This document shows, in pieces, positions 9,276-40,669 of a DNA stretch of 64,000 nt (position 1 is its first letter; the number at the start of each line of letters is the position of its first letter). Source of the stretch: a bacterium (GTDB taxonomy: Bacteria > Sumerlaeota > Sumerlaeia > SLMS01 > JAHLLQ01); contig JAHLLQ010000001.1 in assembly GCA_020444065.1 (NCBI GenBank), positions 1 through 64,000 on the forward strand, given 5' to 3'. A program made the translations under genes and the position numbers. The notes below the pieces were generated by a model. That model saw nothing but the letters and a program-made list of their open reading frames with translations. It was not told the origin of the DNA and made no database searches.

Positions 9276-9448
9276 CTGAGTTCGGAATTGGCCCTATGAT
9301 CCGGGAGTGAGTGGCGTCTCTGCACACCTCGAAGCCATTGGCGCGTCAGGGGCGCCGAAAGGGCTGATTTCAGCCGGTTTCCTGAAAGTGAATTCGAATA
9401 GAGCAAACGGCGTGACAGTGGGAGGTCTCCCCTGCCAAGTGCAGTGCG

Positions 9449-17499: not shown

Positions 17500-17759
17500 G
17501 AGCTTTCCTCGAACTCGGTGTCTAGGGGGATGCCCGCCCGGATTCTGTATATGGCGAGATTCGCTCCAGCTCTCGCAGCAGGGGCATCGAACGGATATGC
17601 TCGATGGTACATGATTGATTTTAGAGCGGATAGGCCATTTGGACCCAAGGTGGCCGGGTATGATCCAGTGCTGATTTCCATTGGCAGACGCGATATTTAG
17701 CGGATATCAGTCGTTGTATTTCGTGTGATTCAGAGAAATCTCAAGGGAGCGGCCGAGCA

Positions 17760-19343
17760 ATGAAGCAGTTTCAGAGGTTCCTTCTCGAGATCTGGCAGGA
17801 GGCTGCCAGGCACATCGAAATCGCTGAATCCGCATCGCGCATAGCACCGATTGTCGCAAATCGCTTGTCCCATAGCTCACTCATTGTCCGAGCCACGAGT
17901 CCGGATGGGGGGGCACTGGAAACTGTAGCATCTGTCGCATCAGATGGGGCCCAGGTAGAGGTTGAGGCTCGGGATGATCTGCATCCTTCCGACCTCCGCG
18001 CCTTGATCGAGGGACGAAGGGCGCGAACGTCTCCGGCCCCAGTTGAATTTGCAGGACGGTATGCAGGTTTGCTGTCCGGCTCGGGCACCGGACGACCTGC
18101 AATGGCCGGACCCCTGCTGTTGGATGGGCAATTCTGTGGGATTCTCATTCTGCACGGTCTTCAGGGTGCGGTGTTTGATCATGCTGACGAAGAGGTTTTC
18201 GGCGCGCTCCTGGAACCGTTGGCCGCAGCACTTGGCAATGATCGTCGCCTGCGTGAATTGCGTCAGTTGCGGGAAGCAGCCGAGGCGGATCGTCGCTCCC
18301 TGTTGAGGCGCTTGGGCAGGGAATCCCTCTCCGTCCAGATCGTAGGGGAACAGGGCGGCTTCCGCATGGTCATGGAACGCGTCGACCAGGTCGGCCAAAC
18401 GAATGCTCCCGTGCTCCTGCTTGGAGAAACGGGAACAGGCAAAGAGGTTGTTGCGCGGGCCATTCACGAGAGGTCGAGGCGCGCCCGCGGTCCGTTCCTG
18501 CGCGTGAACTGTGGCGCGATTTCGTCGGAACTGATCGATTCCGAGCTATTTGGCCATGAGCGGGGGGCATTCACGGGTGCCTCGAACGCGCGCATGGGCT
18601 GGTTCGAGCGAGCAGACGGTGGGACTCTCTTCCTGGATGAAGTCGGCGAACTTCCCCCAGGCGCACAGGTCCGAATGCTACGCGTCCTGCAGGACGGGAT
18701 ATTTGAGCGAGTGGGTGCGCAACAATCCAAGCAGGTCGATGTGCGAATCGTTGCGGCGACGAACCGCGATTTGTCCAATATGGTTCGTCATGGGACGTTT
18801 CGTGAGGATCTGTGGTACCGACTCGCTGTCTTCCCGATTTACCTCCCCCCCCTGCGTGAAAGGGCGGAAGACCTCTATCCCTTGGCTTGCCACTTCGCAC
18901 GGCGTGCCTCCGAGCGTCTGGGGTTGTCCCTTCACGAGCCGACGCAACAGGACATGAGAATACTGAGTCGCTATGATTGGCCAGGGAATATCCGTGAGTT
19001 ATCCTCAGTGATCGAACGAGCGGCAATTCTGGGTGAAGGTCGTGGGTTGGAGATCGCCCGCGCACTTGGCCGGGGGATGACGGCCCAGGCGAGTCCGCTT
19101 CGAACTCAGGCTAGAAGCAGGGAGCGCGAGGGAGAAGAGGGACTCTCAACGTTGGAGGATGCGACGCGCCTCCACATTGAGAAGGCTCTTGAGCTCACAC
19201 AAGGAAGAGTAGACGGACCCAACGGGGCTGCGAAATTGTTATCCGTGAACCCCAACACGCTCCGATCGCGAATGCGCAAACTCCGGATCGATCGGAAGGA
19301 TTTCATTGGCATCGAACGATCACGCAATATCGAGCACCGCTAG
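17760..19343 (+). CDS. Sigma-54-dependent activator with GAF sensor domain
   Basis: 527 residues. The N-terminal ~165 residues form a GAF-type sensor, followed by a coiled coil (about 160-190). The central AAA+ domain has Walker A GETGTGKE (from about residue 222), the sigma-54 contact loop GAFTGA (269-274), Walker [12 protein letters not shown], the arginine-containing [11 protein letters not shown] sensor segment and DWPGNIREL. The C-terminal Fis-type helix-turn-helix (about 465-515) reads [20 protein letters not shown]. No receiver domain is present, so it should respond directly to a small ligand or redox state. GGGAG lies about 10 bases before the ATG. Its target is not evident; the divergent TSUP gene is one candidate. 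Confidence 0.9.
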
Positions 19344-19396
19344 AGTATCGGCGAAGCCTTGGGGCGTGAATCTACTGACCTGTCTCTTCTGAAATC

Positions 19397-20455
19397 CTAT
19401 CCGCGGCGAGCCTGGAGGGCACTCCAGCCAGTCGTGGAGTGGCAACGGTCGTCCTTCTCAATCAGGAAGGCCTCAACGCCAGACAGGGCATCGATCATCT
19501 TCACGGCTGCTGCGGGGGCGGCGATGAAGGCGGCGGTGGACAGCGCATCGGCGCACATGACTGTATCGGCGACGATGCTGGCGCTGGTGCTCTGGAGCGG
19601 ACAGATTCCGGAACGCGGATCGACGATGTGGTGATAAATGCCGGCGTTGTCGTAGTAAATTTCGTAGCGACCGGACGTTGCGACAGCGCCGTCGCGCAGG
19701 TGCAAGACCTGCGGGTAGTTGCCATGCTTGCGTGGGTCTTCGACGGCGATGGTCCACGGTCGGCCCTTTTCATTCAGGCCGCGCGTGCGGATGTCTCCTC
19801 CACCATTCACGAGATGATTTGTCACGCCGTGGCGAGTCAGTACTTCCGATGCCCGATCGATGATGTAGCCCTTCGCGATGCCATCGAGCGTCACGCCCAT
19901 TCCGCGCTCATTCAGTCGCAGTTCTTTGTCGGCAACCTGAAGGTTCCGGATTCCAACGTGCGACAGTGCCGCAGAAATGTGGCGATGGAAGTCTGAAGCA
20001 GACGAGGCCTCACTCTCCAGCACATCGATCACCGGCTTAATCGTCACATCGAAGAGCCCGCCCGTGAGCTTGTGATACGCGAGCGATTCATTGACGACAG
20101 AAAGCAGTTCCGGCGGAGCACCCTTGAGAGCACCGTCTCGGTTGAGAGCAAAAAGTGGGGACGCAGAATCATGGCGACTCAGGAGCGGAACGAGACGATC
20201 GACTTCCTCGAAGGCACGGCCGATCGCTTCCTGGGCCAGAGAGCGCGATGCGTGGACTGCCGTGATGCTGACAGTCGTGCCCATCGCGACGCGCGTGAGT
20301 GAAACGCTCTCAAGGCCATCGCCGAGTTTGACGATGTTGAAGGTGCCTTGCAGCAGGCCGCCGGCAATAGCACCGACACCGAGCGCACCGCAGGTCTTCA
20401 AGAACGTTCGGCGGTCGCAGTTGCGCAGTGAATCGAAGATGCTCGAACGAGTCAT
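19397..20455 (-). CDS. apbE: FAD:protein FMN transferase ApbE (Tat-exported)
   Basis: 352 residues. It attaches FMN covalently to Thr in RnfG and RnfD, using FAD as donor. The start has a twin-arginine signal (CDRRTFLKTCGALGVGAIAGGLL). The ApbE fold follows, with MGTTVSI, ...GLFDVTIKPV, LDGIAKGYIIDRA, VNGGGDIRTRG and HHIVDPRSG motifs and a late TVMCADALSTAAF segment that holds the Mg ligand. The ATG at 20455 overlaps the stop of the preceding small gene (ATGA), and GGAAGG is about 9 bases upstream. It is the last gene of the kor-rnf operon, which fits its job as maturase of the complex. Confidence 0.95.
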   Translation of the reverse strand: MTRSSIFDSLRNCDRRTFLKTCGALGVGAIAGGLLQGTFNIVKLGDGLESVSLTRVAMGTTVSITAVHASRSLAQEAIGRAFEEVDRLVPLLSRHDSASPLFALNRDGALKGAPPELLSVVNESLAYHKLTGGLFDVTIKPVIDVLESEASSASDFHRHISAALSHVGIRNLQVADKELRLNERGMGVTLDGIAKGYIIDRASEVLTRHGVTNHLVNGGGDIRTRGLNEKGRPWTIAVEDPRKHGNYPQVLHLRDGAVATSGRYEIYYDNAGIYHHIVDPRSGICPLQSTSASIVADTVMCADALSTAAFIAAPAAAVKMIDALSGVEAFLIEKDDRCHSTTGWSALQARRG

Positions 20456-20682
20456 GTCATGCTTCCTTCCGCATGCCGGCGCTGGTCGCCGGCATGATCG
20501 CAGTGGGATGAGGACAATGCGCATCCCTCGCAGTTGTTTTCGTGACAATGAGAGCGGTCGCCGATGATGTCGGCACCCGCGGGAAGTTCCGGGTTCTGCT
20601 TCCTCAGAACAGTCATGACGCCCAACCACAGAAGCGACAGGCCGACGATCGTCCCGACGGCAATAAGCAGGTGATAGATCAC
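20452..20682 (-). CDS. Small Cys-rich membrane protein, NqrM-like
   Basis: 76-residue protein with one transmembrane helix (IYHLLIAVGTIVGLSLLWLG) and a Cys/His-rich tail (SHCHENNCEGCALSSSHC). The layout is that of NqrM (DUF539), a small factor needed to insert the iron centre between NqrD and NqrE; RnfA and RnfE are their homologues. The gene starts with GTG at 20682, overlaps the rnfA stop by 4 bases (GTGA), has GGAGGT 5 bases upstream, and its own stop overlaps the apbE start. Such tight coupling argues that it is real although short. Similarity to NqrM is judged from architecture and position, not alignment. Confidence 0.75.
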   Translation of the reverse strand: MIYHLLIAVGTIVGLSLLWLGVMTVLRKQNPELPAGADIIGDRSHCHENNCEGCALSSSHCDHAGDQRRHAEGSMT

Positions 20683-21266
20683 TCGCCACCTCCCATGCCG
20701 GCAAACCCCATGAAGGCCATCGACAGAATGCCGGCGACCATCAGCGTGATCGCAGCGCCCTTTACGACAGAAGACATATCGGAGAGTTCGAGGCGCTCGC
20801 GAATGCCGGACATCAGCAGTAACGCCAGCGTGAACCCGGCGCCCGCACCAACCGCGAAGCTGAGGCACTGGACAAAGTTGTAGCCGCGGCTCGTTTGAAA
20901 GAGCGCCACGCCGAGAATCGCGCAATTCGTCGTGATCAGCGGAAGGAAGATGCCGAGGGCTCTGAAGAGAGCGGGGCTGAACTTCTTTACGAACATCTCG
21001 ACCAATTGCACGGAGGAGGCGATGACGACGATGTATGAAATCAGGTGCAGATAGGGGGCGTTAATCGCAGTGAGGATCTGGTGAATCGCGTACGCACACA
21101 TTGAACTGACAAGCATGACGAACGTCACCGCGGCACCCATGCGGACGGCTGTGTCCGTCTTGTTGGAGACGCCGAGGAATGGGCAGATACCCAGGAAAAG
21201 GCTGAGCACGAAGTTGTTAATCAGCACCGCCTGGAGGAGGATTTTCAATGGGGAATCGGTATTCAT
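20679..21266 (-). CDS. rnfA: Rnf complex subunit RnfA
   Basis: 195-residue inner-membrane protein with six helices. It is the RnfA/NqrE-type half of the ion-translocating core and pairs with RnfE around a [2Fe-2S] centre. Typical motifs are LINNFVLSLFLGICPFLGVS (N-terminal, with the conserved Cys) and LPLITTNCAILGVAL (the second conserved Cys after TTN). ATG 21266 overlaps the rnfE stop as ATGA, and AAGGAGG is 7 bases before it. Length matches the family. Upstream extension in the same frame has no similarity. Confidence 0.95.
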   Translation of the reverse strand: MNTDSPLKILLQAVLINNFVLSLFLGICPFLGVSNKTDTAVRMGAAVTFVMLVSSMCAYAIHQILTAINAPYLHLISYIVVIASSVQLVEMFVKKFSPALFRALGIFLPLITTNCAILGVALFQTSRGYNFVQCLSFAVGAGAGFTLALLLMSGIRERLELSDMSSVVKGAAITLMVAGILSMAFMGFAGMGGGE

Positions 21267-21895
21267 GCAGCAGCCTCCTTGCGACGTTCGCGCATCCAAT
21301 TGAAAAGCAGGAGCCACCCGCCCAGAACGAAGAAAGCACCGCCCGGCAGGACCATCACGACCCAGGGCTCGAAGTGAGAGCCAAGGATCGGAACACCGGC
21401 AAACGTCCCGTTTCCAAGAATCTCGCGGACGACGCCGAGCGAAAGGCATGCGATGGTGAACCCGATTCCCATGCCAAGCGCGTCGAGAATAGAACGGCCG
21501 ACGCTGTTCTTCGAGGCAAATGCCTCCGCCCGGCCTAGGATGATGCAGTTCACAACAATTAGCGCGATGAAGGCGCCCAGGGCGTTATAGATTTCCAGAC
21601 TGATCGCCTGGATCAAGTAATCAACGACTGTCACGAAGGTCGCAATGATCAGAATGAAGGAGGCGATGCGGACCTGTTTCGGGATCCACTTACGAACGAG
21701 AGAAACCATGACGCTCGACATCAGGAGCACGAAGGTCGTCGCCATTCCCATCGCCAGCGCATTGATGACCGAGTTTGTCACGGCAAGTGTCGGGCACATG
21801 CCCAACAGCGCCACGAATACAGGGTTTTCGCGCCAGAGGCCCTTGATGAACTCGTCCATGGACGGGTTGATGGCGGGCGAATTACTCGGAGACAT
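21263..21895 (-). CDS. rnfE: Rnf complex subunit RnfE
   Basis: 210-residue six-helix membrane protein, partner of RnfA. It carries FIKGLWRENPVFVALLGMCPTLAVT (first Cys motif) and LIVVNCIILGRAEAFASKN (second Cys motif), hallmarks of RnfE/NqrD. ATG 21895 lies inside the last codons of rnfG (14-base overlap) and has GGGAG 7-8 bases upstream; a second in-frame ATG at 21859 lacks a comparable site. Confidence 0.95.
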   Translation of the reverse strand: MSPSNSPAINPSMDEFIKGLWRENPVFVALLGMCPTLAVTNSVINALAMGMATTFVLLMSSVMVSLVRKWIPKQVRIASFILIIATFVTVVDYLIQAISLEIYNALGAFIALIVVNCIILGRAEAFASKNSVGRSILDALGMGIGFTIACLSLGVVREILGNGTFAGVPILGSHFEPWVVMVLPGGAFFVLGGWLLLFNWMRERRKEAAA

Positions 21896-22601
21896 CGTCC
21901 GCTCCCTTTTTCAGAATATCAACGCTGCGTTCGATGACGGGTACTGTCGATTCAGTATCTGTGCCGAGGATTGTCGCGACGGCACGCGAAGAGATTGTCG
22001 CACCCGTGATCGCTTCCATTTCCCAGGGTTGCGTCTTCTCCCCGTTCTTCACAAGCTTGACCTTCTCCTTCACCGCCGACCCATCGTCCGTCAGAGGAAT
22101 GGCCAGTTCATTGAAATTCGACAGGAATGCAGGATCGCTGATGATCTTGTCGCCCAGGCCGGGAGTTTCTTTACTCTCAAGGACCTTGAAACCAATGATT
22201 GCGTGCTTCGAGGGCGAGTAGCCGTAGATCAAAGAAATGGTATCCTGGAAGCCTTGTCCGGCAGTCTGTATGGCAACGCCTACAACTTCGCCATCATCGT
22301 CATAGCCGACGTAGAACTTCTTCTGCACCGGCGCATCCATGGTGGTGGGTTCGAGCTTGCCGTCGACCTCTGCGAACGGATGCTGAGACGTCGCGCCGGG
22401 GAGAACTTCGACAATGGCCGCCTCAAGCGCCGCCTCCTTGTTGGCGACGATGAAAGGCAACGTCAGTTGGAACGTCGCCACGATCAGGATGCCGGAGGCC
22501 AATCCAATACCGGCCATCGTCATGATCAGACGCAACGGACTGGGCGAATCGTCCTGCGGGACGACTTGTTGCTGCGGCATCTGTTGTTCCATATCAGACA
22601 T
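21882..22601 (-). CDS. rnfG: Rnf complex subunit RnfG (covalent FMN)
   Basis: 239 residues: short cytoplasmic N-terminus, one transmembrane helix (about 24-50) and a periplasmic FMN-binding domain. The flavinylation motif EAITGATISSRAV places the modified Thr at about residue 202. ETPGLGDKI, another family motif, is present at about 145-152. RnfG passes electrons between the membrane core and RnfD. Its ATG directly abuts the rnfD stop (TAAATG). Confidence 0.95.
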   Translation of the reverse strand: MSDMEQQMPQQQVVPQDDSPSPLRLIMTMAGIGLASGILIVATFQLTLPFIVANKEAALEAAIVEVLPGATSQHPFAEVDGKLEPTTMDAPVQKKFYVGYDDDGEVVGVAIQTAGQGFQDTISLIYGYSPSKHAIIGFKVLESKETPGLGDKIISDPAFLSNFNELAIPLTDDGSAVKEKVKLVKNGEKTQPWEMEAITGATISSRAVATILGTDTESTVPVIERSVDILKKGADDVSE

Positions 22602-23633
22602 TTAGGCAGCTTCCGCTTTCGATTTCACCGCGCCGTAGATGCGCGGCTGCGTCCAACGATCGATCAGTGGCGACAGTGCGTTCATGAATAGGATCGAGTA
22701 CATCACGCCTTCGGGCAAACCGCCGAACTCGCGGATTGCCACGACCAGAATCCCGATCCCTGCGGCAAAGAACCAACACCCACGGGGAGTAACGGGAGAA
22801 GTCACTGGGTCGGTTGCCATGTAGATCGCACCAAGCATCAATCCGCCACACAGCAGATGTTGCACGGGTCCGGGATACTTATCGGCGTCAATCAAGTGCA
22901 ACAAGGTCGCCAAAATAGCGACCGTCAAAAAGATTCCGACGGGAATGCGCCATTTGATGAAGCCGCGTACGCCAAGGTAGATGCCCCCGGCGAGCAGAAG
23001 GAGCGCACACGTCTCGCCGATCGAACCGGAGATATTGCCGAGGAGGAGCGAACTTGCCTGGGTCGAGATGCCCTCGAACTTCATCTTCGCCAACGGCGTC
23101 GCCGCCGTAATGGCATCGAACTCCGGACGCATGAACGGAAGGGCAAACGTGTCGCCACGCAGACGGAAGAAGTCCTGCAGTCCCGAATGAACCGGCCATG
23201 TGGTCAGCGCGAGGGGGAATGAGGCCTGGAGGAAGGCGCGTCCCGTCAGCGACGGATTGAAGACGTTATTGCCGAGTCCCCCGAAGAGATACTTGCCCAG
23301 CGCGACCGCGACAATTCCACCCATCAGCGCCATCCAGATCGGCAAGCCCGGCGGCAAGGTCAGCGCAAGGAGAATTGCCGTCAGCAGTGCGCTGCCGTCG
23401 CGCAGCGTGCTTTCGCTCCAGCGAGGCCGGCCAGTGATGATCCACTCCGTCCCCATGGCGCCAATCGTACAGGCCAACAGCACCATCAGCGCGCTGATTC
23501 CGAACAAGTACAACGCAACGAGCACGACAGGCGCCAGCGCGTAAAGCACATGCCGCATCACCTTGGGCGTGTCGACCGGGCGCTTCAGGAACGGCCCCGT
23601 GGAGATAATCAGCTTGGGCGATTGTGCACTCAT
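22602..23633 (-). CDS. rnfD: Rnf complex subunit RnfD (covalent FMN)
   Basis: 343-residue polytopic membrane protein of the NqrB/RnfD family, about 9-10 helices. Motifs: FGGLGNNVFNPSLTGRAFL and the flavinylation segment DAITAATPLA (residues 173-182, Thr 179 the expected FMN site), and near the end TDPVTSPVTPRG. It forms the main ion-channel subunit with FMN and riboflavin. Start overlaps the rnfC stop as ATGA. Confidence 0.95.
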   Translation of the reverse strand: MSAQSPKLIISTGPFLKRPVDTPKVMRHVLYALAPVVLVALYLFGISALMVLLACTIGAMGTEWIITGRPRWSESTLRDGSALLTAILLALTLPPGLPIWMALMGGIVAVALGKYLFGGLGNNVFNPSLTGRAFLQASFPLALTTWPVHSGLQDFFRLRGDTFALPFMRPEFDAITAATPLAKMKFEGISTQASSLLLGNISGSIGETCALLLLAGGIYLGVRGFIKWRIPVGIFLTVAILATLLHLIDADKYPGPVQHLLCGGLMLGAIYMATDPVTSPVTPRGCWFFAAGIGILVVAIREFGGLPEGVMYSILFMNALSPLIDRWTQPRIYGAVKSKAEAA

Positions 23634-24973
23634 GCGGCGTTGTTCTTCTTCCGAGCCATCTCTTCACGGATGACTCCCTTGGCCACGCGGAATCGCTGGA
23701 CCAGGGGAATGTTCGACGGACAGACATAGGAGCATGATCCGCACTCCATGCAATCCATCAGATGATAGTTCTCCAGCATCTCGTCGTACCGCCCCATCCG
23801 GGCCAGCGCGCCGAGTTGAGTCGGATTCAGGAACACCGGACATGCGTCAAGGCAACTGGCGCACCGAATGCACGCATACTCCTGCCGCGGTCCGGCTGCC
23901 TGCTTCGAAGTCAGGCACACAATTCCAGACACGCCCTTTGTAACAGGGACGCGCAGATCGTACTGCGGCGTGCCCATCATCGGGCCGCCAAAGAGAATCT
24001 GAGACGCGTCCTCGGTGATACCACCGCAGTAGTCGAGGATCTCCTGGAGAGCGGTCCCGACCGGGACAAGAAGCGTCGATGGTTGCTTGATGCCAGGGCC
24101 GGTCACTGTGATGACGCGCTCGATCAGAGGCTGGCCGAAGGAGAAGAGCTCGCCGATTCCCGCTACCGTCCCAACGTTCTGCACAACAACCTGTGCATCG
24201 AGCGGAAGTTTGCCGCTGGGGATCTCACGCTGCAGAACGGCCGTGACGAGCATCTTTTCCGCGCCTTGTGGGTACTTCGTTTCCAGAGGGACCAATTCGC
24301 ACGGAAGATCCGCCGGCACGCGGTCTTGCAGGCCGCGGATAGCGTCCCACTTGTTCGTCTCGACGCCGATGAAAGTCTTCTCTGCACCAAGCAGTTTCTG
24401 GATAATGCGGATTCCAAGGAAGATCGCATCCGCCCAATCCAACATGATGCGATGGTCGGTCGTCAGGTAGGGCTCACATTCGCATCCGTTAACGAGGAAA
24501 TACTGGACGTGCTTGCCCTCGGGAACAGAGAGCTTCACATGCGTCGGGAATGCCGCCCCGCCGAGACCGACGAAGCCGCCTTCCTTGACCATTGTCAGCA
24601 GTTGCTCGGCCGGCATGGATTCCCAATCAACGGGTTCTTCATTATGTAGAGTCTGCGGCGATGAGGGATCCGTTGCGATGACAATCGATTCCACCATTCG
24701 CCCCGACGGGTGATGCCGAAGTTCGATCGCCTTTACCTTTCCCGTCACGGATGCATGGAGAGGCACCGAAACAAAGCCACCGGCCTTTGCAATCAACTGA
24801 CCGCGATAAACGCGATCGCCGGCTTTCACAAGAGCGACCGACGGTGCCCCCAAGTGCTGGCTGAGCGGCAATACCACCTCGGCCGGCATCGGGATACGCT
24901 CAATCAAGCGCCCCTCGGTCAGTCCTTTGTTCTCCGGCGGATGAACACCGTGGCGGAAAGTCTTTGCGCTCAT
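23630..24973 (-). CDS. rnfC: Rnf complex subunit RnfC
   Basis: 447 residues. RnfC is the peripheral NADH/FMN subunit. The glycine-rich nucleotide/FMN region is seen at VGLGGAAFPTHVKL and NGCECEPYLTTDHR (about 155-195), followed by the SLBB-type domain. Two [4Fe-4S] motifs follow, CIRCASCLDACP and CMECGSCSYVCP (about 367-415). Length is standard (no long C-terminal repeats as in some Proteobacteria). ATG overlaps the stop of the PFOR-like gene by 4 bases. Confidence 0.95.
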   Translation of the reverse strand: MSAKTFRHGVHPPENKGLTEGRLIERIPMPAEVVLPLSQHLGAPSVALVKAGDRVYRGQLIAKAGGFVSVPLHASVTGKVKAIELRHHPSGRMVESIVIATDPSSPQTLHNEEPVDWESMPAEQLLTMVKEGGFVGLGGAAFPTHVKLSVPEGKHVQYFLVNGCECEPYLTTDHRIMLDWADAIFLGIRIIQKLLGAEKTFIGVETNKWDAIRGLQDRVPADLPCELVPLETKYPQGAEKMLVTAVLQREIPSGKLPLDAQVVVQNVGTVAGIGELFSFGQPLIERVITVTGPGIKQPSTLLVPVGTALQEILDYCGGITEDASQILFGGPMMGTPQYDLRVPVTKGVSGIVCLTSKQAAGPRQEYACIRCASCLDACPVFLNPTQLGALARMGRYDEMLENYHLMDCMECGSCSYVCPSNIPLVQRFRVAKGVIREEMARKKNNAA

Positions 24974-27900
24974 GACTCCGTCCCTACTTCTGCTTCACTT
25001 GCGCGGTTCGCCAGGAATTCACGAAGCGACTGACGGAAGAAGTCCGGGTCGTTGCTGTAGCCGGACAGTGCCAGCAGGCGCTGGACGATCTTCTGTCGGG
25101 TTTCCTCCGGTGTCTCTGCAACGACAACTGGCTCCGGTGGCGTGGGACTCGAAGCGGGCTCCTCAACAAGCGCGGGAGCCTTACCCGATGCGATCCGTTG
25201 CAGTTCATGCCATTCGGCGAGCTTCTTCTCGCTGAATGCGATCAATTCCGGGGACAGGATCGCAAGAAACTGGCGTCCACGCGCATCGGCTCCACGAACA
25301 AACGCGTGCAGCCCGGAACGCTCGTCTTCCGAGATCTGAAGGTACTCTGCGAGCGGCATCCCGCGCTCCCCTGCCGGAGCTTTGCGGAAGCCGTTCTGGA
25401 AACGCGCTTCCTGCACCGCCCAGTCAGCCGGAGTTGCAGCCACTTCCAGAGCTTCAACATCTCCGCCTGGCTTTTGGACGTTCAGAGTATGCGTTCCCCA
25501 ATCCTCAGAGGCTGCGCGATTATCGCCCAATTGCAGCTTGCCCGAGGCATATCGGAAGAGCGGGAAAACGCGGCCGGAAACTGCGATTTCTGCATGAGCG
25601 ACGATCTTCTGCGGGGCAACACCGCTGCTCGCCGGGTGAGGCGCATGGACGTGCAAGAGGGCCGGTCGGGAGGACTCCATGCAGTCGACGACTCCAGCGA
25701 CGAGATGTGCCGGCGCACCGATGCTGCTTTGCAGTGCGATCGCATCGTACCGGCGAGCCAAGGCCAGCAGATCGATCTTGGGATCTGCGCCATCTGTGTT
25801 GAGAAGAACAACATTCACCGGGTATTCCGACTTCAGCAGTGCCGCGACCGATGCAGAACTCGCCTTTGCACTATCGCAAAGCACAACGATTGGGGGCAGG
25901 AGGTGCTTGGCATCGACTTCCTGCGCGACTCCTGCGGCAACAAGGTCATCGGCTTCCTGCACGATCTGCAATTCTCCAGCGATCTGTTGCCGGATACCTT
26001 CCATCATGCCGCGTGCAATGCCTGCAATGTCGCCGGCATCCTGAGCAAGCCACGGATTCCGGTGTGGGTTGTATGGATAGGTGGCATTCCAGTAGGCAGC
26101 GCCGTCGCGATCAATAGCTAACACTAAGGGTGTCCGCGACGGAACGGTGCCGGAGTAGCTCTGCTGTTGCTTCTCGAGGCTCGTCAGCAGATGTCCGAGG
26201 TGCTTCAGTAATTCGACATCGCGATCTTCGATTCCGCGGTTGTCACCGAAGATACCCAACAGTGCGTCAGGCTTCACATTAGAAGTCTCCAACTGCGCGA
26301 TCTTCTGATGGAAGGCTTCGAAGTCGTTGATCTTGAGAGTCGCATCGACTTTCCCCTGGATTCGATCGCGTACGCGGTCGATCAACGTGGTCAGATGCTT
26401 CGCATGTGCCGCGTAACGCGGATAAACACACGAGTGAATTGCCGCCGTGATCAAATGGACGGCAATCTTGGTGCTATCGCCCGGCAGCGAACCATCGCCA
26501 CCGACCAGAGAGAAGTACGCAGAGGGATCGAGCAGTCTGTTCAATTGCGACTGCGGTTTGTCCGCGCTGACGAGATCCGAGATACTGGCAGCTGGAACTT
26601 CACGCTGGAATTCGCAATCTTTGCGACCCACGGACAGCATCTCCTCGGATTGCTCCGCCCACTCGATGGCCCCCTCGGGACAAACTTCGAGACACAAGCC
26701 ACATGCCGTGCAACTCATCGGATCGATCGCAATGGTCAGGAGCCGACGATCATCCTTGTCGCGCGAATCGAAGAACTCCTCCGTTCGACTGAACGTGTAG
26801 TTCGGCGTCGCCGCCTGCAGCTTTTCGAATTCCTCATCGAAGACCTTGCGATCGTCCTCGCTCGGCTTCATGCGATCCATGAGTCGCTTGTAGGCCTCAT
26901 CAAGCAGCGGGCCGAATGCGAGAAACTGTCCGAGATCGTCTTTGGAAACGATCGTTGTGGCTTGTTGTGCCAGATGTTTCTGAATGCGCTGAAGCTGCAC
27001 AAGTCCATCGCAGCGATTCATCACAGTCTCGATCAGCTCCGAGGGCGTACTCACCGTCGACGGCATCGCCGAGTCGGGACACTGCGACCAACACGACGCA
27101 CATCCCGTGCAGTTCTCGGGCAGCCAGTGCGGTATGCGAAGACGCCATGGTGTCAGATCGCGGAAAGCGCTGCTGCCCGCCGGGATTATTCCCGATGCCA
27201 AATGCGGATCCGTCGCGGCCTGCTCAGGCTGGCCGGAATCGTAGAGGAATCCAACCGAATGCCAGAACCGCGCGCGGTTGAAGACAGTTGCGTCGGCGCC
27301 ATCTTCGCCGATCGTCCAGGGCGCATCGCCTTCTGGATTTGCAGGGCTTGGTGGAAGATCCTTGCCCGACCAAACGAGCTCCGCCGCTTCCTCTGCTGCG
27401 CGCTGCATACAGTCGGCGATCTGCGCGGCCAACTGCTCCCCGCCCAACTTCGTGAGGCGTTCGCGCAGTGCCTTGCGAACGTCTGCCTGCTTCGTATCCT
27501 CTACCAGCGTTCCAAGTGCCGCGCCGATGAGTGCCCAGCAGGCCAGCGAATCGAAGAACGCCGGCTGATCGGAAGCTTCACTTGAGATATTCTCGGCGTC
27601 GACGACGGTGATCTTCAATTCATTCTTGCAAATCCACTGTGCCGTCGACCGAGGCATCTCCGCCCAGAAGGAATTGGGATCGCAATCCGTTGCCACGATT
27701 ACATGTGCCCGCTTCTTCACGGACGACTGAGTTTCGTTCGCATCCAGGAGGTTTGACGATGCGACCAGGAGGATGTCGGACTTCTCCGGCGCCGTTGAAG
27801 CCACATCGGCGTCGCTTGCGTATGCGATGACGAGAGAAGCGGGAAGAAGATCCGATCCAAGACCGCCGGCTGCGAAGGTGCGCACATCCCAGTTCGAAGC

Positions 27901-29400
27901 TTCGGCCAGGGATTGGGCCAAGATACTCCCAACTGCGAGACCGCCCTGCGCCGCCAGGTAGTCCATGCGAAGCGAAGAAGTCTCTTCACTCGGAGAATCC
28001 GACGACTTCGGAAGGCAGAGCGAAGGAAGTTCAGGGTAGGCCTGAGCCAGGCGCTGCTGAACGGCCTGCAGGTGTGGGTAGCGACGGTTCGTCGCCGCTA
28101 CAAGATCGCCAAGATAGAAGAGGCGCTTGCCCGCCGTCTTTCCGCACATGTTGCGGACAGCAGCAGCCAGTTCACTGAAACGAGGCAACGGCCCGCCAAT
28201 TCCATACAATCCCGTGTGAATTGCCGGACGATCAGTCGGCTTCGCGAATCGGCCGAAGCCCGGGAATGGTGTCTCGTTTGCGGGCGCCAGCGTGTTCTCC
28301 GTTGCCTTGTCAAGCGCCGCGCGCACTTCGCGCGTGATCGGAGCGTGTGCGCTGCGCTCCAGGATCGTGATCGCCTTCTTCTTTGCCAGAAGATGCGATA
28401 ACATCTGCGCAGGGAACGGATGCCAAGTGACGATCGAGGCGATGCCCGCTTTGATCTTCTGCTCGCGAAGCCGATCGATGACTTCCCTGAGTGCGCCCCC
28501 AATCGCTCCCATGCAGACAACTAGATATTGAGCATCGTCAGCGCGGTACTCCTGCACCGGGGCGTACTCGCGTCCGGTCAGTTCACCATACTCGCGGAAT
28601 GCCTGATCGATGAATTCAGCGACATGATTCTGGAAGAAGATATCGTGACCAACGGCAGCGCGTGAGGCGCTTTCGCTGCCCATCAGTCCGCCAAGTCCTG
28701 CCGGATGATCGACATCGATCAGTCGCGGCACACGCCGGCGCTCACGTCCAAGCAGAATCTCCTGAGAAGTGCTGGGCGTCGCAATGCGATCGCTGGAATG
28801 TCCAAGAAACGCAGTTGCCAGGGCCTCATCCGGAAGTAGGAGCGACTGCACAGACTGTGCGGTTTCTGCGAGATCCTGCCCGCATACGCCAGGGATGAAC
28901 GACAGTTCTGCTACACGGTGGGCGATCATCGCCAAATCGGCTGCCTGCTGCGCGGTCGAAGCGAAGAACTGGAATGCGCCCGTGGCGCAAGCCCCAAAGA
29001 AATCATCCTGCCCGCCGGCGGAAGTACTTGCTGCTCGCTCGGAAGCATGGCAGGCCAGATGCACCGTAAAGGGTGCGTGTTTTCCTACGGCCGTTGTCAG
29101 TTCGGCCTGTGCACAGCCAAGGTCGGAGACCAATGCAGTCGCGCGTGCACCGGTCAGTGCGGCGCCCGTGAGCGTGCCGATCGCCCCGGCAGAATTCTCA
29201 GAGGACTCGATGGTCTTCTCGCCCGGAACCAGGTTAATCAATCCACTTTCCAGTTCCGTCAATTCCGGCGTGGACTGTACTACGAGCACGTCGGCAACAA
29301 GCCGTTCAACGGCGCAGGCGGCCGCTTGCCCATCGAGTGTCGATGCGACTCCGGGACAAGGCGCTTCTTTTTCAGGCGATTTAGCTTTTCGAAACCACAT
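24970..29400 (-). CDS. PFOR-like multidomain iron-sulfur protein inside the rnf operon
   Basis: 1476 residues, longer than pyruvate:ferredoxin oxidoreductase (about 1170-1200) but with its domain order. A domain-I-like region (about 15-250) contains SSENSAGAIGTLTGA and APFTVHLACH. Domain II lies near 285-400 (YLVVCMGAIGGALREVID), a gamma-like domain near 490-690 (GGLAVGSILAQSLAEA, AAGGLGSD). Two ferredoxin motifs follow: CTGCASCWSQCP (about 760) and CTACGLCLEVCP (about 895). The C-terminal 500 residues fall where the TPP domain should be. The catalytic features look lost: the conserved domain-I Arg falls at a His in HLACH, and no GDG-x-(A/S)-x-D-IG TPP/Mg motif is visible. It starts inside the last 20 bases of rnfB and overlaps rnfC. 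A structural or electron-wiring subunit linking ferredoxin to Rnf is inferred. A Pro-rich linker (VEEPASSPTPPEPV) precedes the last 50 residues. Confidence 0.8.
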   Translation of the reverse strand: MWFRKAKSPEKEAPCPGVASTLDGQAAACAVERLVADVLVVQSTPELTELESGLINLVPGEKTIESSENSAGAIGTLTGAALTGARATALVSDLGCAQAELTTAVGKHAPFTVHLACHASERAASTSAGGQDDFFGACATGAFQFFASTAQQAADLAMIAHRVAELSFIPGVCGQDLAETAQSVQSLLLPDEALATAFLGHSSDRIATPSTSQEILLGRERRRVPRLIDVDHPAGLGGLMGSESASRAAVGHDIFFQNHVAEFIDQAFREYGELTGREYAPVQEYRADDAQYLVVCMGAIGGALREVIDRLREQKIKAGIASIVTWHPFPAQMLSHLLAKKKAITILERSAHAPITREVRAALDKATENTLAPANETPFPGFGRFAKPTDRPAIHTGLYGIGGPLPRFSELAAAVRNMCGKTAGKRLFYLGDLVAATNRRYPHLQAVQQRLAQAYPELPSLCLPKSSDSPSEETSSLRMDYLAAQGGLAVGSILAQSLAEASNWDVRTFAAGGLGSDLLPASLVIAYASDADVASTAPEKSDILLVASSNLLDANETQSSVKKRAHVIVATDCDPNSFWAEMPRSTAQWICKNELKITVVDAENISSEASDQPAFFDSLACWALIGAALGTLVEDTKQADVRKALRERLTKLGGEQLAAQIADCMQRAAEEAAELVWSGKDLPPSPANPEGDAPWTIGEDGADATVFNRARFWHSVGFLYDSGQPEQAATDPHLASGIIPAGSSAFRDLTPWRLRIPHWLPENCTGCASCWSQCPDSAMPSTVSTPSELIETVMNRCDGLVQLQRIQKHLAQQATTIVSKDDLGQFLAFGPLLDEAYKRLMDRMKPSEDDRKVFDEEFEKLQAATPNYTFSRTEEFFDSRDKDDRRLLTIAIDPMSCTACGLCLEVCPEGAIEWAEQSEEMLSVGRKDCEFQREVPAASISDLVSADKPQSQLNRLLDPSAYFSLVGGDGSLPGDSTKIAVHLITAAIHSCVYPRYAAHAKHLTTLIDRVRDRIQGKVDATLKINDFEAFHQKIAQLETSNVKPDALLGIFGDNRGIEDRDVELLKHLGHLLTSLEKQQQSYSGTVPSRTPLVLAIDRDGAAYWNATYPYNPHRNPWLAQDAGDIAGIARGMMEGIRQQIAGELQIVQEADDLVAAGVAQEVDAKHLLPPIVVLCDSAKASSASVAALLKSEYPVNVVLLNTDGADPKIDLLALARRYDAIALQSSIGAPAHLVAGVVDCMESSRPALLHVHAPHPASSGVAPQKIVAHAEIAVSGRVFPLFRYASGKLQLGDNRAASEDWGTHTLNVQKPGGDVEALEVAATPADWAVQEARFQNGFRKAPAGERGMPLAEYLQISEDERSGLHAFVRGADARGRQFLAILSPELIAFSEKKLAEWHELQRIASGKAPALVEEPASSPTPPEPVVVAETPEETRQKIVQRLLALSGYSNDPDFFRQSLREFLANRASEAEVGTES

Positions 29401-30229
29401 CTTTGGGCCTGTTCATAAGTGACTTAAATTGCTGTCCTTCGATCCACGTGATAGCGCCGGTGGGACAGCGCTTTATGGCATTCGAATCCTGCAGCGAGAG
29501 CAACTCCTCGTTCAGGACGGGCAGATTGTGTTCCATCTTCAGCAATCCCTGGGGCGCATCGGCAACGCAACGACCGCAAGCCGTGCAAGCGACCTTGCAG
29601 AAGTCGAGCATGCCGTCGCCCTCGAGTACGGACTTGCATTGGACGAAGAGCTTCTGCTTCATCGGGACGATTTCAAAGAGATCCTTCGGACACGCGCGGA
29701 CGCAGTCGCCGCAGGATGTACACTTCACCGGATCCACGATCGGAAGACCGGTCTCGCTCATCGTGATCGCGTCGAACGTACACGCCACATCGCAATCGCC
29801 GAAGCCGAGACAGCCATAACGGCAGCCCTTCGTTCCACCAGCAACGGATGCTGCTGCACGACACGTTGGCTGACCTTGGTACTCGGCCATCTGGATGGCA
29901 ACATTAGAGCCACCGGCGCACCGTAGTCGAGCAACCATCGGCTCGGCCTCGCCCGCTTCGACGCCGAGGAAATCCGCGACTAACTGGGCCGTTGCCGCCC
30001 CACCGACGGGGCAACCACTCGGCTGAATGTTGCCGGCGATGACGTTCTCCGCAAAGGCACGACAGCCGGGCAGCCCGCACGAGCCGCAATTGGTCCCGGG
30101 CATCATGTCATTGACAACATCGATGCGCGGATCCTCGTAGACCTTCAGCTTCTGGCTAGCCACGGCAAGCACGCCCGCGAGGATAGTCGTCAGCCCCAGA
30201 AGGTAGCCTATGGCGATCAGACTCTCCAT
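29381..30229 (-). CDS. rnfB: Rnf complex subunit RnfB (ferredoxin-binding)
   Basis: 282 residues: one N-terminal transmembrane helix, the Fes [4Fe-4S] motif NCGSCGLPGCRAFAENV (about 47-63) with a further Cys in GCPVGG, then a ferredoxin-like region with CTSCGDCVRACP and CTACGRCVADAP, and a final CPTGAITW. The second cluster motif lacks the usual closing Cys-Pro directly after VADA and borrows one further on. RnfB takes electrons from soluble ferredoxin. It lies 8 bases after the 836-residue gene; TAGGGA precedes the ATG. Confidence 0.9.
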   Translation of the reverse strand: MESLIAIGYLLGLTTILAGVLAVASQKLKVYEDPRIDVVNDMMPGTNCGSCGLPGCRAFAENVIAGNIQPSGCPVGGAATAQLVADFLGVEAGEAEPMVARLRCAGGSNVAIQMAEYQGQPTCRAAASVAGGTKGCRYGCLGFGDCDVACTFDAITMSETGLPIVDPVKCTSCGDCVRACPKDLFEIVPMKQKLFVQCKSVLEGDGMLDFCKVACTACGRCVADAPQGLLKMEHNLPVLNEELLSLQDSNAIKRCPTGAITWIEGQQFKSLMNRPKDVVSKS

Positions 30230-32750: not shown

Positions 32751-33722
32751 TTATGCATCGGCACCCTGGGCGATTCCGAATCGGTCGAAGGATTTGGTGA
32801 GAAGCTGCTCGCGCTGCTGCCAGATGGGCATCTTCTGCGGGCGGCGAATCTCGTCGTAGCAGGGAATGCTCTCGTTCTGGTAGAAGATGCCGATGGGCAC
32901 CTTGTCTTCCAGATCGGCCAAGCGGCGGGCATTGTTCATATCGCTGGGATCATGGTCTTCGTGAGTCTTGTACACGCGAGCCAGATCGTCGCTGACCTTC
33001 ATACCATTGTCGTGGCGCAGCAGCATCAGGTTATTCGGGTCGGCCAACAGCGACTGAAAGCCGGTCGGCATAAAATGCGGACAGCGCTGCAGAATGCGGA
33101 TGAACGCAAAGCCCTTGTGGTGATACGCGCGGCGGATCACATCGAACAGCAGTTCGGGAATCCACTCCACGACCTGCGCCACAAAACTCACGTTCGTAAT
33201 GCCGAGCGTCGCACTGACCGGGTTGATTGGATTCAAATACGCGCCGCCGGGGGTTGTGTTGGTCTTCCAGCCCTTCGGCGTCGTCGGCGAAACCTGCTTC
33301 TTGGTCAAGCCGTAGATGTTGTTGTCGTGCAGCATCGCGACCATATGGAAGTTCATGCGGACGGCATGAATCCAGTGTGCGGTACCGATACTGCAGCAGT
33401 CGCCGTCACCCATATTGACAAAGACATTCAGATCCGGGCGACGGATCTTGACACCCTGCGCGGTCGGCAGTGCGCGGCCGTGAAGGCCGTGGAAGCCGTA
33501 GGTGCTGACGTAATGCGGGAAGCGCGCGGCACAACCAATGCCGGAAACGAACACCGTCTTCTCCAGCGGCAGTTGCTCGTCACGGCACAGGCGCTGCACT
33601 GCAGCCAGAATACCATTGTCACCGCAGCCTGGGCACCAGCGCGAAACGCGGCCGGCGTAATCTTCCAACTCGAGGTATTCCTGGGGGTCGCTAAGGACAC
33701 ACTCTGTATTCAGTCCAAACAT
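32751..33722 (-). CDS. korB: 2-oxoacid:ferredoxin oxidoreductase beta subunit
   Basis: 323 residues. Catalytic TPP-binding subunit. It has the cluster/TPP motif WCPGCGDNGI near residue 30, the Mg-TPP motif GDGDCCSIGTAHWIHA (about 107-122) and NNIYGLTKKQVSPTTPKG after it, typical of 2-oxoglutarate- or 2-oxoacid-specific KorB proteins. The GDG motif here contrasts with its absence in the PFOR-like protein of the same operon. AGAGGA precedes the ATG, 21 bases after korA. Substrate (2-oxoglutarate or another 2-oxoacid) is inferred from subunit type. Confidence 0.92.
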   Translation of the reverse strand: MFGLNTECVLSDPQEYLELEDYAGRVSRWCPGCGDNGILAAVQRLCRDEQLPLEKTVFVSGIGCAARFPHYVSTYGFHGLHGRALPTAQGVKIRRPDLNVFVNMGDGDCCSIGTAHWIHAVRMNFHMVAMLHDNNIYGLTKKQVSPTTPKGWKTNTTPGGAYLNPINPVSATLGITNVSFVAQVVEWIPELLFDVIRRAYHHKGFAFIRILQRCPHFMPTGFQSLLADPNNLMLLRHDNGMKVSDDLARVYKTHEDHDPSDMNNARRLADLEDKVPIGIFYQNESIPCYDEIRRPQKMPIWQQREQLLTKSFDRFGIAQGADA

Positions 33723-33743: not shown

Positions 33744-35651
33744 TTAGCGGGCACCAAGCCGGCGCTCGATCATTTGTTCGACTTCTTCGGGTTTGATGGG
33801 TTGTCCGTGCACATGGCTCCAGCAGTCGACATCCACAAGATAGCGGGCGCGGAGCAGGAGACAGAGGTTCGAGTAACGGCGGTTGTCATCGTCGATCAAC
33901 TCGTCATTCGGATCGTCGGAATAGTTGATCTCCACCGTAACGACTTGCTTGAACTTCTGCATGATCTCTTTGATGCCGGATGCCATGGGCTGCAGGAACG
34001 TCAGATGGAGCGAGGACACCTTGTGTCCCTTGCTGCTCATCGTATCGACGGCTTCCTCGATCGAACCCTTCGTGCTCCCCCACCCGACGATCAGCAGATC
34101 GCCCTCGGGGTCGCCATGCACCTTCGGCGTCTTCAACGTCTTCTGGAAAGCCGCCAGCTTCAAGCTGCGGTAACGGCAACCTTGCTGGTTGATGCCCGGC
34201 TCGTACGCAACGTGGCTCTCGCGATCATGGGCAAGACCCGTCAGCGCGTACATGCCGCCCGGCTGGCCGGGGATGTGGCGCTGGCTCAGGCCTGTCTTCT
34301 CATCCCAATCGAACGGCGGGTGGCTGGGATCCACCGGGCTCTGATCGATCGGAGGAGCCAGCCATTCCTTCTTGAACTTCGGACGCGGGAACATTTGCTG
34401 GCCGGTGGCCAGATTGGCATCGCTGAGGACGATCACAAGCGTGCGGAACGTCTCCGCAATCTTGCGAGCGGTGATAATCGAGTAGAAACAATCTTCAATC
34501 GTTGCCGGGGCCATGATGATCTTCGGCGCATCCCCATGCGTTCCAAAGAGCGCCGCCAGCAAGTCGCCCTGCTCCACCTTTGTGGGAAGACCGGTGGATG
34601 GGCCGCCACGCTGGACATTGACCAGGACCAGAGGAACCTCGCCCATCACGGCGAGGCCCATGAGCTCCGTTTTCAATGCCATGCCGGGACCCGAGGTGAT
34701 CGTGACAGCGCACTTGCCGGCATAGGATGCGCCGATCGCAAAGGCAGCCGCGGCGATCTCGTCCTCCGCCTGGTGGACAACGCCGCCGCACTCGTCGAAG
34801 ATTTCGCTGAGATAGTGAGAGGCCGAGGTCGCAGGCGTAATCGGATACATGGCACAAACGTCCATGCCCGACGCCACAACACCCAAAGCGATCGCCGTAT
34901 TGCCGTTCATGACGACCTGGGGTTCCGTAGATTCCATCGGGGTGACATCGAAACGGAAATCCAGATGCCCGCCCGCATATTCGAAGCCGGCTTCCAGCAA
35001 CTTCACGTTTGCATCGATGACCGGCTGGCCCTTTTTCTTGAACTTCGCCGCGATGGCCTTTCTGGCGTAGGCAAGCTCGCGCGAGTACACGCGGCAAAGA
35101 ATACCAAGGATGAACATATTCTTGCCGCGCTTCGGATTGTCCGTGTGCTTCAGACATTCCTCTTCCATCGGGACCTCGTAGACACGGTATCCCTTTGCTC
35201 GGAGGTCTGCGACAGTGGACGTGTAAGCCTTTGCGACGCCTGGGACCTTCGAAGAGGCCCAGACATTCTCCAGAATAATGATGGCGTTCTTCTTGAACTC
35301 GCCCGCGGCCTCACGCCCCTTCAAAACCTGCTCGTTCAGAGCCAGGACAATGTCGGTGTGGTTACCGGCGTTCGTGATCGGAAAGGAACCCAGTCGGATT
35401 CGGTTGCCGCTGGCGCCCGCCGTGCTGCGAGCAGGGGGCTCGACCTCGGCGGGGATAATCTCCACCGTCCAGACGCTGTTACCCATCTGGGCGCTGACGG
35501 TGCCGAACATCTGTCCGGCGGTCTGAGCACCTTCGCCGGAGTCGGAGATGATCTCGACGATGTGCTGGTCGACACGCTGGATGGTGCCGGCTTCCTGTGT
35601 GGGACTCATGCCCTCTTTTGCGCCTTCATTCATGACATTTCCTGTGCTCAT
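33744..35651 (-). CDS. korA: 2-oxoacid:ferredoxin oxidoreductase alpha subunit, gamma-alpha fusion
   Basis: About 635 residues. The first ~240 residues are the gamma domain (ISDSGEGAQTAGQMFG ... FKKKGQPVIDANVKLLEAG). The alpha domain follows with MNGNTAIALGVVASGMD, the substrate motif YPITPATSAS, QAEDEIAAAAFAIGASYAG and TSGPGMALKTELMGLA. This is the usual fused KorA layout. Several in-frame ATGs exist: 35651 has GAGG 4 bases upstream and 35633 has AGGAA 6 bases upstream; an even longer reading to 35747 has no support. First gene of the kor-rnf operon. Confidence 0.9.
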   Translation of the reverse strand: MSTGNVMNEGAKEGMSPTQEAGTIQRVDQHIVEIISDSGEGAQTAGQMFGTVSAQMGNSVWTVEIIPAEVEPPARSTAGASGNRIRLGSFPITNAGNHTDIVLALNEQVLKGREAAGEFKKNAIIILENVWASSKVPGVAKAYTSTVADLRAKGYRVYEVPMEEECLKHTDNPKRGKNMFILGILCRVYSRELAYARKAIAAKFKKKGQPVIDANVKLLEAGFEYAGGHLDFRFDVTPMESTEPQVVMNGNTAIALGVVASGMDVCAMYPITPATSASHYLSEIFDECGGVVHQAEDEIAAAAFAIGASYAGKCAVTITSGPGMALKTELMGLAVMGEVPLVLVNVQRGGPSTGLPTKVEQGDLLAALFGTHGDAPKIIMAPATIEDCFYSIITARKIAETFRTLVIVLSDANLATGQQMFPRPKFKKEWLAPPIDQSPVDPSHPPFDWDEKTGLSQRHIPGQPGGMYALTGLAHDRESHVAYEPGINQQGCRYRSLKLAAFQKTLKTPKVHGDPEGDLLIVGWGSTKGSIEEAVDTMSSKGHKVSSLHLTFLQPMASGIKEIMQKFKQVVTVEINYSDDPNDELIDDDNRRYSNLCLLLRARYLVDVDCWSHVHGQPIKPEEVEQMIERRLGAR

Positions 35652-36056
35652 GGTGCCTCGGTTTGATGGTAATTCGGAGTATTCGGACAACTCTTCTCCC
35701 ATATGGGAATATTGCGCTAGAGCAGATGTCGGTCGAATGCAACACAAGAATCCGTCTGTTTGGTCGGAAACATTGCTCTTTCCAGTGTCCGATCTCGAAA
35801 GGAGCCTTCCCCAGCAGCCCGGTCACTTCCAAGCTTTAAATGTGCAGTATCTGTGGAAAACTAGGTGTCAATGACCGAATTTGACCGCAACATATTGCAT
35901 CCACGGAATAAAGACCCGTGTCCATATTCCGGAGCCGTGATTGTCGAGATCGCAATATTCCTGTCTTCCGAAGACTGACGGATTCCTCCAGGGACGGTTT
36001 TCGCCTTTGGAGGAAGTGAGACACCTGTAGCTGGCCATTGCCGCCGAACCAGCGAC
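35652..36056 (-). promoter_or_regulatory. Probable promoter region of the kor-rnf operon
   Basis: This 400-bp gap upstream of korA holds no gene. On the minus strand a TTGACA (35866-35871) is followed 14 bases later by GATACT (35846-35851), a weak -35/-10 pair with short spacing. No terminator with a T-run is seen after the beta-helix gene; its last codons contain a GGGGC-TCCG-GCCCC hairpin. The promoter call is tentative. Confidence 0.3.
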
Positions 36057-40286: not shown

Positions 40287-40567
40287 GGCATGCCTCCATG
40301 AAGAGAATCTCGCCGGCCAGTCGTCCGGCCCTATTCCCAGCAGAATCCCAAATCGTGCGTCCCCCAGCCCCAACGCTGGGCGCCATCCCCTCGGGGCCAG
40401 CCGGTCATATGCGTATAGTGGATTCTACCCAGAGCCCGATGCGTTTGGCAATTGATTTACGGGTGAAGAAGCGCTCGTCAGGCCTGCTCTATTCTCCATT
40501 CGGCCCAGTGCTTCGGTTCTCTTGCCCCAAGTGATTCGTTGACAAGTGGGTCTTCTGCGGTGTTCGT
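40287..40567. other. Divergent intergenic region
   Basis: Region between the beta-helix gene and the conserved leader of the first scaffoldin-like gene. A TTGACA occurs at 40539-40544 on the plus strand without a good -10. No gene, repeat or terminator is recognised. Confidence 0.4.
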
Positions 40568-40669
40568 GGCAAGATTTGAGTAGATTTACGCCTGCTATTT
40601 CTGGCAATCTTGTCGTGTTGGGGATGATTTTGGAATCTGACAAGTTCCCAGGAGGGTTGCGTGAGGATG
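40568..40669 (+). promoter_or_regulatory. Conserved leader of scaffoldin-like gene 1
   Basis: This 102-bp segment aligns without gaps, about three quarters identical by eye, to 50539-50640 before the second paralogue. The first ~50 bases are best conserved (ATTTGA-x-TAGATTTACGCC); the end holds AGGAGGG. In the second copy GCCCG-CTGTTT-CGGGC forms a small hairpin; here the same place has one T-T mismatch. It should contain the shared promoter and 5' UTR. Confidence 0.5.

Follow-up and report, generated by a model that had tools for sequence, protein, structure and literature searches.

The Rnf complex is a sodium/proton pump that, in the usual description, couples ferredoxin to NAD+ and receives its electrons from a soluble carrier, and the known two-subunit KorAB enzymes have free ferredoxin as their electron partner. 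In the Solemya velum symbiont, genes for a pyruvate:ferredoxin oxidoreductase (PFOR) lie between rnfB2 and rnfC2, and pyruvate was proposed as the donor for this Rnf (Dmytrenko et al. 2014, PMC4287430). A catalytic PFOR embedded in an Rnf operon is, hence, already known; keyword passages of a 2025 review of RNF/NQR (PMC12174285) make no mention of PFOR-derived Rnf-operon subunits. The present analysis concerns a 64,000-nt stretch of a Sumerlaeota genome (i.e. the window; GCA_020444065.1, contig JAHLLQ010000001.1, positions 1 to 64,000), in which the gene for a 1476-residue protein, P1476, occupies the place between rnfB and rnfC. P1476 is probably a PFOR pseudoenzyme within an Rnf operon that is fed by KorAB.

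Loss of the PFOR active site in P1476

P1476 was compared with the embedded PFORs of the Solemya velum symbiont (L106), Marichromatium (L127) and Flagellimonas (L138). All belong to the same long PFOR family (27–29% identity to P1476), hold the same operon place and carry the same two ferredoxin-type clusters. These three proteins keep the thiamine pyrophosphate (TPP) site and the proximal cluster, whereas P1476 has neither; those of Marichromatium and Flagellimonas carry a C-terminal ferredoxin domain that P1476 lacks; and P1476 is accompanied by KorAB and an unnamed 836-residue subunit (P836). With the stand-alone PFORs of Desulfovibrio africanus (1B0P), Moorella (6CIN) and Escherichia coli (YdbK), P1476 shares the domain order I-II-III-V-VI and clusters B and C, but it appears to be without TPP chemistry, lacks the proximal cluster and differs in its insertions, extended C-terminus and linkage to Rnf.

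P1476 descends from a PFOR. The Pfam domains POR_N (PF01855, E 7.5e-13) and PFOR_II (PF17147, E 1.6e-15) both scored over their cut-offs, 4Fe-4S domains were also detected, and phmmer matched P1476 to Moorella and Desulfovibrio PFORs with E-values in the range of 1e-16 to 1e-18 (Moorella 6cin, E 3.8e-18). An AlphaFold model of residues 700–1476 (mean predicted local distance difference test score 81) had a PFOR as its top Foldseek match (E 2e-12, probability 1.00, 14% identity). P1476 is a remote PFOR with domains I, II, III, V and VI in order, domain III being recognised by alignment only; it has both the rnfB–rnfC position and the whole-length homology to long PFORs of the Rnf-embedded type. 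Against the curated PFOR family TIGR02176, 93.7 bits were obtained over the N-terminal part only, as compared to the 911 bits required.

Active-site columns were read from two alignments that included E. coli YdbK, the genome's own 1198-aa PFOR and catalytic homologues, with residue roles that we take to be those of the D. africanus PFOR structure. P1476 matched none of the five positions (GDG...N TPP/Mg site, catalytic Glu, substrate Arg and Thr), as compared to 5/5 in the catalytic homologues. In the TPP region GGDG is replaced by CDSA and the YSNTGGQ segment is deleted, and the four Cys columns of the proximal cluster (cluster A) hold L, D, G and H. Both 4Fe-4S clusters of domain V are kept, with 8/8 Cys. 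The initial annotation of the window, which had described a PFOR domain order with both ferredoxin motifs but no GDG-type TPP/Mg motif or substrate Arg, was correct on each of these points. The status of P1476 as a pseudoenzyme is, as judged from sequence, well supported. That P1476 is an ordinary PFOR whose active site has been misaligned or has shifted, with TPP still in use, would fit the overall PFOR fold of the modelled C-terminal half, but is already contradicted by the joint absence of the domain I and VI residues and all proximal-cluster Cys, by the deleted NTGG segment and by the variation among inactive homologues at these same positions; this explanation is scarcely credible.

Catalytic and inactive PFORs of Rnf operons

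A scan of genome contigs with the single P1476 sequence gave no match. An alignment-based pattern scan of GTDB genomes yielded 567 relatives, of which the best 80 were examined together with loci from whole-genome searches. These best 80 of 567 are long PFORs of about 1640 aa, nearly all adjoining rnfB and/or rnfC, from Gammaproteobacteria, Betaproteobacteria, Bacteroidota, Gemmatimonadota, Calditrichota, Hydrogenedentota, Planctomycetes, Myxococcota and others. The existence of homologues in other genomes ruled out a gene unique to the source organism. Eighty-six homologues retained every active-site and cluster A, B and C residue checked, and rnfB or rnfC was in view at 82 of these 86 loci; those lacking both were on short contigs, plus one (L085) that adjoins KorAB. 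The initial annotation knew of no Rnf operon with a gene between rnfB and rnfC, a view overturned by the catalytic PFORs found there in many phyla and published in 2014 (PMC4287430), while the linkage of homologues to rnf that it had wished to see surveyed was borne out. Long PFORs of 1500–1620 aa with an intact active site and no rnf in view were observed at L083, L091, L092 and L192. In two genomes of the window's class (G013 and G022) the PFOR was encoded by two genes (L038, L039, L040; 675 + 532 aa in G013); its TPP motifs were intact, and rnf did not adjoin it in the stretches examined. No additional kin turned up in searches around G143, G279 and G226.

Nineteen Rnf-PFORs, including P1476, were classed as dead, with active-site scores of 0–2 of 5; catalytic members scored 5/5 and two sequences truncated at contig ends scored in between. 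All four proximal-cluster Cys were absent in 17/19 dead proteins, L081 and L082 being the two that retain them, and all eight Cys of clusters B and C were present in every dead protein except L076. In an analysis of 11 long sequences of the main dead clade, only 18% of the 450 columns conserved in at least 95% of catalytic members were kept at a level of at least 90%, indicating that slow change and chance do not account for the retention of eight/eight cluster B/C Cys, as compared to zero/four cluster-A Cys.

The ratio of non-synonymous to synonymous substitutions (dN/dS) was 0.15–0.19 for close pairs of dead PFORs, and the P1476-type protein is therefore maintained by purifying selection. 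In these pairs RnfB, RnfC and KorB had lower values (0.02–0.07); a more distant dead pair (L174/L175) gave 0.43, with sites saturated. A decaying fossil, in which an Rnf-PFOR has become dispensable and is being lost, would account for this faster evolution relative to neighbouring genes and for the damaged copies (L084, which is split, and G414, with an in-frame stop). Such decay is very improbable given dN/dS ratios well under 1, open frames of 1420–1600 aa in genomes of several phyla, the retained Cys, and the repeated emergence of the same state with KorB present wherever the flank was readable.

Evolutionary history was examined in a quick tree of RnfC, used as a proxy for the operon, in which long branches call for caution. 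The RnfC of the window fell inside a 12-row clade composed of dead-type operons only (Shimodaira–Hasegawa-like approximate likelihood ratio test, 99), and the remaining dead cases stood among or beside catalytic ones, giving four changes in total. A single origin of the dead state was rejected on RnfC (approximately unbiased test, P 1e-7). These results indicate that the predicted loss of catalysis occurred independently several times. Several Calditrichota have two Rnf operons, one arranged as KorA-KorB-P836-rnfB-dead-rnfC and the other as rnfB-catalytic-rnfC, on the same contig in L180/L181. Recruitment to Rnf from elsewhere is unlikely because a catalytic PFOR holds the same place in many phyla; P1476 most likely derives from a catalytic PFOR already resident in the Rnf operon, whose activity disappeared where its work passed to KorAB and a ferredoxin subunit. 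The initial annotation had suggested a recruited subunit that couples 2-oxoacid oxidation to Rnf: coupling, with KorAB as the oxidising enzyme, remains the best reading, whereas the origin is most likely resident and not recruited.

KorAB, P836 and the ferredoxin domain

In the direction of transcription the operon runs KorA, KorB, P836, RnfB, P1476, RnfC, RnfD, RnfG, RnfE, RnfA and ApbE (Table 1), with the P1476 frame sharing 4 nt with rnfC and 20 nt with rnfB, in agreement with the coordinates first annotated. All six Rnf subunit genes (A, B, C, D, E and G) are together in the window, so that with respect to the rnfBCDGEA type the operon has the same subunits in standard order and, in addition, PFOR-derived subunits. 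RnfA, B, C, D and E scored over their NCBIfam cut-offs; RnfG obtained 96.3 bits against a cut-off of 102. Elsewhere in this genome a second, partial RnfC-like protein scored below the family cut-off (L196, G000:C1:986669-987622).

KorA scored over the TIGR03710 cut-off; KorB obtained 238.8 bits against the TIGR02177 cut-off of 261.9, all of its motifs being nonetheless intact. The pair are likely, from these residues, to be the catalysts. By comparison with a two-subunit KorAB, the Magnetococcus 2-oxoglutarate:ferredoxin oxidoreductase (6N2N), the motifs of the window proteins are intact, but here KorAB is followed by P836 and lies inside an Rnf operon. P836, whose gene the initial annotation overlooked, is a second PFOR-derived protein and the bearer of a ferredoxin domain. 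It shares homology with the C-terminal half of long PFORs (BLASTP 2e-16 against P1476), and Foldseek matched it to a PFOR C-terminal half and to ferredoxin I. P836 has no TPP site, and at its C-terminal end carries the single-cluster Fer4_13 ferredoxin domain that is absent from P1476.

At every dead locus with a readable upstream flank, a KorB with intact motifs was present; KorA was found at all but L076, and P836 at most. A dead KorB in L075 and L076 was ruled out by alignment, which revealed intact motifs missed by a strict pattern. L075 also encodes, beside its intact KorB, a KorB-KorA fusion (17511–19637) with a broken TPP motif (MGDMD), possibly another pseudoenzyme in the same operon type. 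Gemmatimonadota and relatives that combine KorAB with a catalytic PFOR encode a shorter P836-like protein (~335 aa) between KorB and RnfB; it was observed at L107, L113, L118, L141, L150, L155 and L163 and matches the middle of P836 weakly. A novel protein family has been described beside rnf in Joyebacterota (PMC9727166), and may correspond to P836 or to this shorter protein.

The ferredoxin domain was relocated in the dead operons. Catalytic Rnf-PFORs carry Fer4_13 at their own C-terminus, with the domain on the PFOR only in 74 catalytic operons and on P836 only in one; in dead operons it was on P836 only in 13 cases and on both proteins in one. The domain is carried by the PFOR or by P836 but almost never by both (Fisher test, 5e-10, shared ancestry ignored). 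Three catalytic rows that were missed by the ferredoxin pattern carry the domain according to a check of alignment columns.

A dead PFOR might act instead as a regulatory or heteromeric partner that tunes another, active PFOR or KorAB of the cell, with no wiring to Rnf. PFORs are dimers and this genome has the separate, ordinary PFOR of 1198 aa, both of which would suit such a partnership; it is improbable in view of the strictly kept place between the rnfB and rnfC genes and of the separate clade formed by the associated Rnf subunits.

Large proteins with FG-GAP/beta-helix, cohesin or multi-Ig/EF-hand domains are encoded near the operon (36057–40373, reverse strand; 40661–42325, forward strand; 5751–9275, reverse strand) and are probably exported.

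Table 1. Positions of the KorAB-P836-Rnf genes and of P1476 motifs in the window
Feature	Position	Strand	Remarks
KorA	33744..35747	-	667 aa, TTG start, gamma+alpha fusion; YPITP, QAEDEI and RGGPSTG motifs intact
KorB	32751..33722	-	323 aa; TPP motif MGDGDCCSIG, DNNIYGLTK and 4Fe-4S Cys intact
P836	30238..32748	-	836 aa, unnamed subunit; degenerate PFOR C-terminal half + Fer4_13 (residues 764-813)
RnfB	29381..30229	-	
P1476	24970..29400	-	1476 aa, ATG start; PFOR-derived pseudoenzyme (predicted), between rnfB and rnfC
P1476, domain I remnant (POR_N)	28807..29214	-	residues 63-198; catalytic Glu to Ser, substrate Arg to His
P1476, 4Fe-4S motif B	27079..27111	-	intact, CTGCASCWSQC; Cys 764, 767, 770, 774
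P1476, 4Fe-4S motif C	26680..26712	-	intact, CTACGLCLEVC; Cys 897, 900, 903, 907
P1476, lost proximal-cluster CxxC position	26476..26487	-	residues 972-975; LPGD in place of CxGC
P1476, lost TPP/Mg motif position	25867..25872	-	Ser1177-Ala1178 in place of Asp-Gly of the PFOR GDG
RnfC	23630..24973	-	
RnfD	22602..23633	-	
RnfG	21882..22601	-	
RnfE	21263..21895	-	
RnfA	20679..21449	-	predicted start probably too far upstream
ApbE	19397..20704	-	flavin transferase; expected flavinylation of Rnf subunits

Proposed route of electrons and its meaning

The ancestral protein would have been a catalytic PFOR, a standing accessory of the rnfB-PFOR-rnfC-D-G-E-A operon type that presumably fed electrons from pyruvate to RnfB. 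In the KorA-KorB-P836-rnfB-P1476-rnfC lineage this work would have been split: KorAB would oxidise the 2-oxoacid, P836, a PFOR C-terminal half, would have received the C-terminal ferredoxin domain, and P1476 would serve as a membrane-side platform with two ferredoxin-type clusters. The active site of P1476 was apparently lost because the neighbouring KorAB now does the chemistry. Electrons from 2-oxoacid and CoA would pass through the TPP of KorA/KorB and the 4Fe-4S cluster of KorB to the ferredoxin cluster of P836, and from there through the P1476 clusters to RnfB, Rnf and NAD+ with ion pumping; P1476 would relay electrons for RnfB and/or position them, and the reverse direction would also be possible, for reductive carboxylation. 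A physical complex and this order of transfer are what we infer, and P1476 is best read as a platform that also relays electrons, connecting KorAB and the ferredoxin subunit with Rnf. The wider proposal, that KorAB, P836 and the dead PFOR are joined on RnfB/RnfC in a fixed assembly which exchanges electrons between 2-oxoacid and ion pump without free ferredoxin, and which arose several times from Rnf complexes with a catalytic PFOR, is plausible and is advanced tentatively.

The main rival is a structural scaffold without an electron relay. P1476 would then hold the cytoplasmic side of Rnf, or KorAB-P836, in place, with the ferredoxin domain of P836 passing electrons directly to RnfB and clusters B and C surviving as stabilising relics. 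The dN/dS of dead PFORs, several times above that of the Rnf subunits, would be consistent with a scaffold, as would L076, which keeps its gene and operon despite the loss of both clusters. A pure scaffold is, however, unlikely given that 8/8 Cys were kept in 18/19 dead proteins while most other conserved positions were lost.

Several loci weigh against the platform-and-relay function and the division of labour proposed here. In L076 the dead protein (6083–10723) has also lost the cluster B and C Cys while operon and open reading frame persist, indicating that not all lineages require an electron relay. Nor is labour divided in the same way throughout: L081, L082 and L094 are dead in their TPP residues yet retain a ferredoxin domain of their own, together with the proximal cluster in L081 and L082; L090 pairs P836 with a catalytic PFOR. 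KorA-KorB-P836 occurs without rnf in view at L080 (6230–11281) and, on a short contig, at L088 (1337–4660), and P836 thus looks like an independent partner of KorAB.

Neither an inactive PFOR nor a KorAB-Rnf operon was found in the open-licence literature searched, which is weak evidence of absence; a dead Rnf-PFOR that arose repeatedly and is accompanied by KorAB and by a ferredoxin subunit made from half a PFOR looks new. Rnf operons with a built-in PFOR are common across phyla, are hardly discussed in the literature found, and suggest that substrate input is hard-wired. The inactive version indicates a function of the embedded PFOR other than catalysis, and a substrate input that can be exchanged, with pyruvate entering through PFOR or another 2-oxoacid through KorAB, without a change of the wiring part. 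The dead Rnf-PFOR is, in effect, a natural separation-of-function experiment, through which direct electron transfer from enzyme to Rnf becomes testable.

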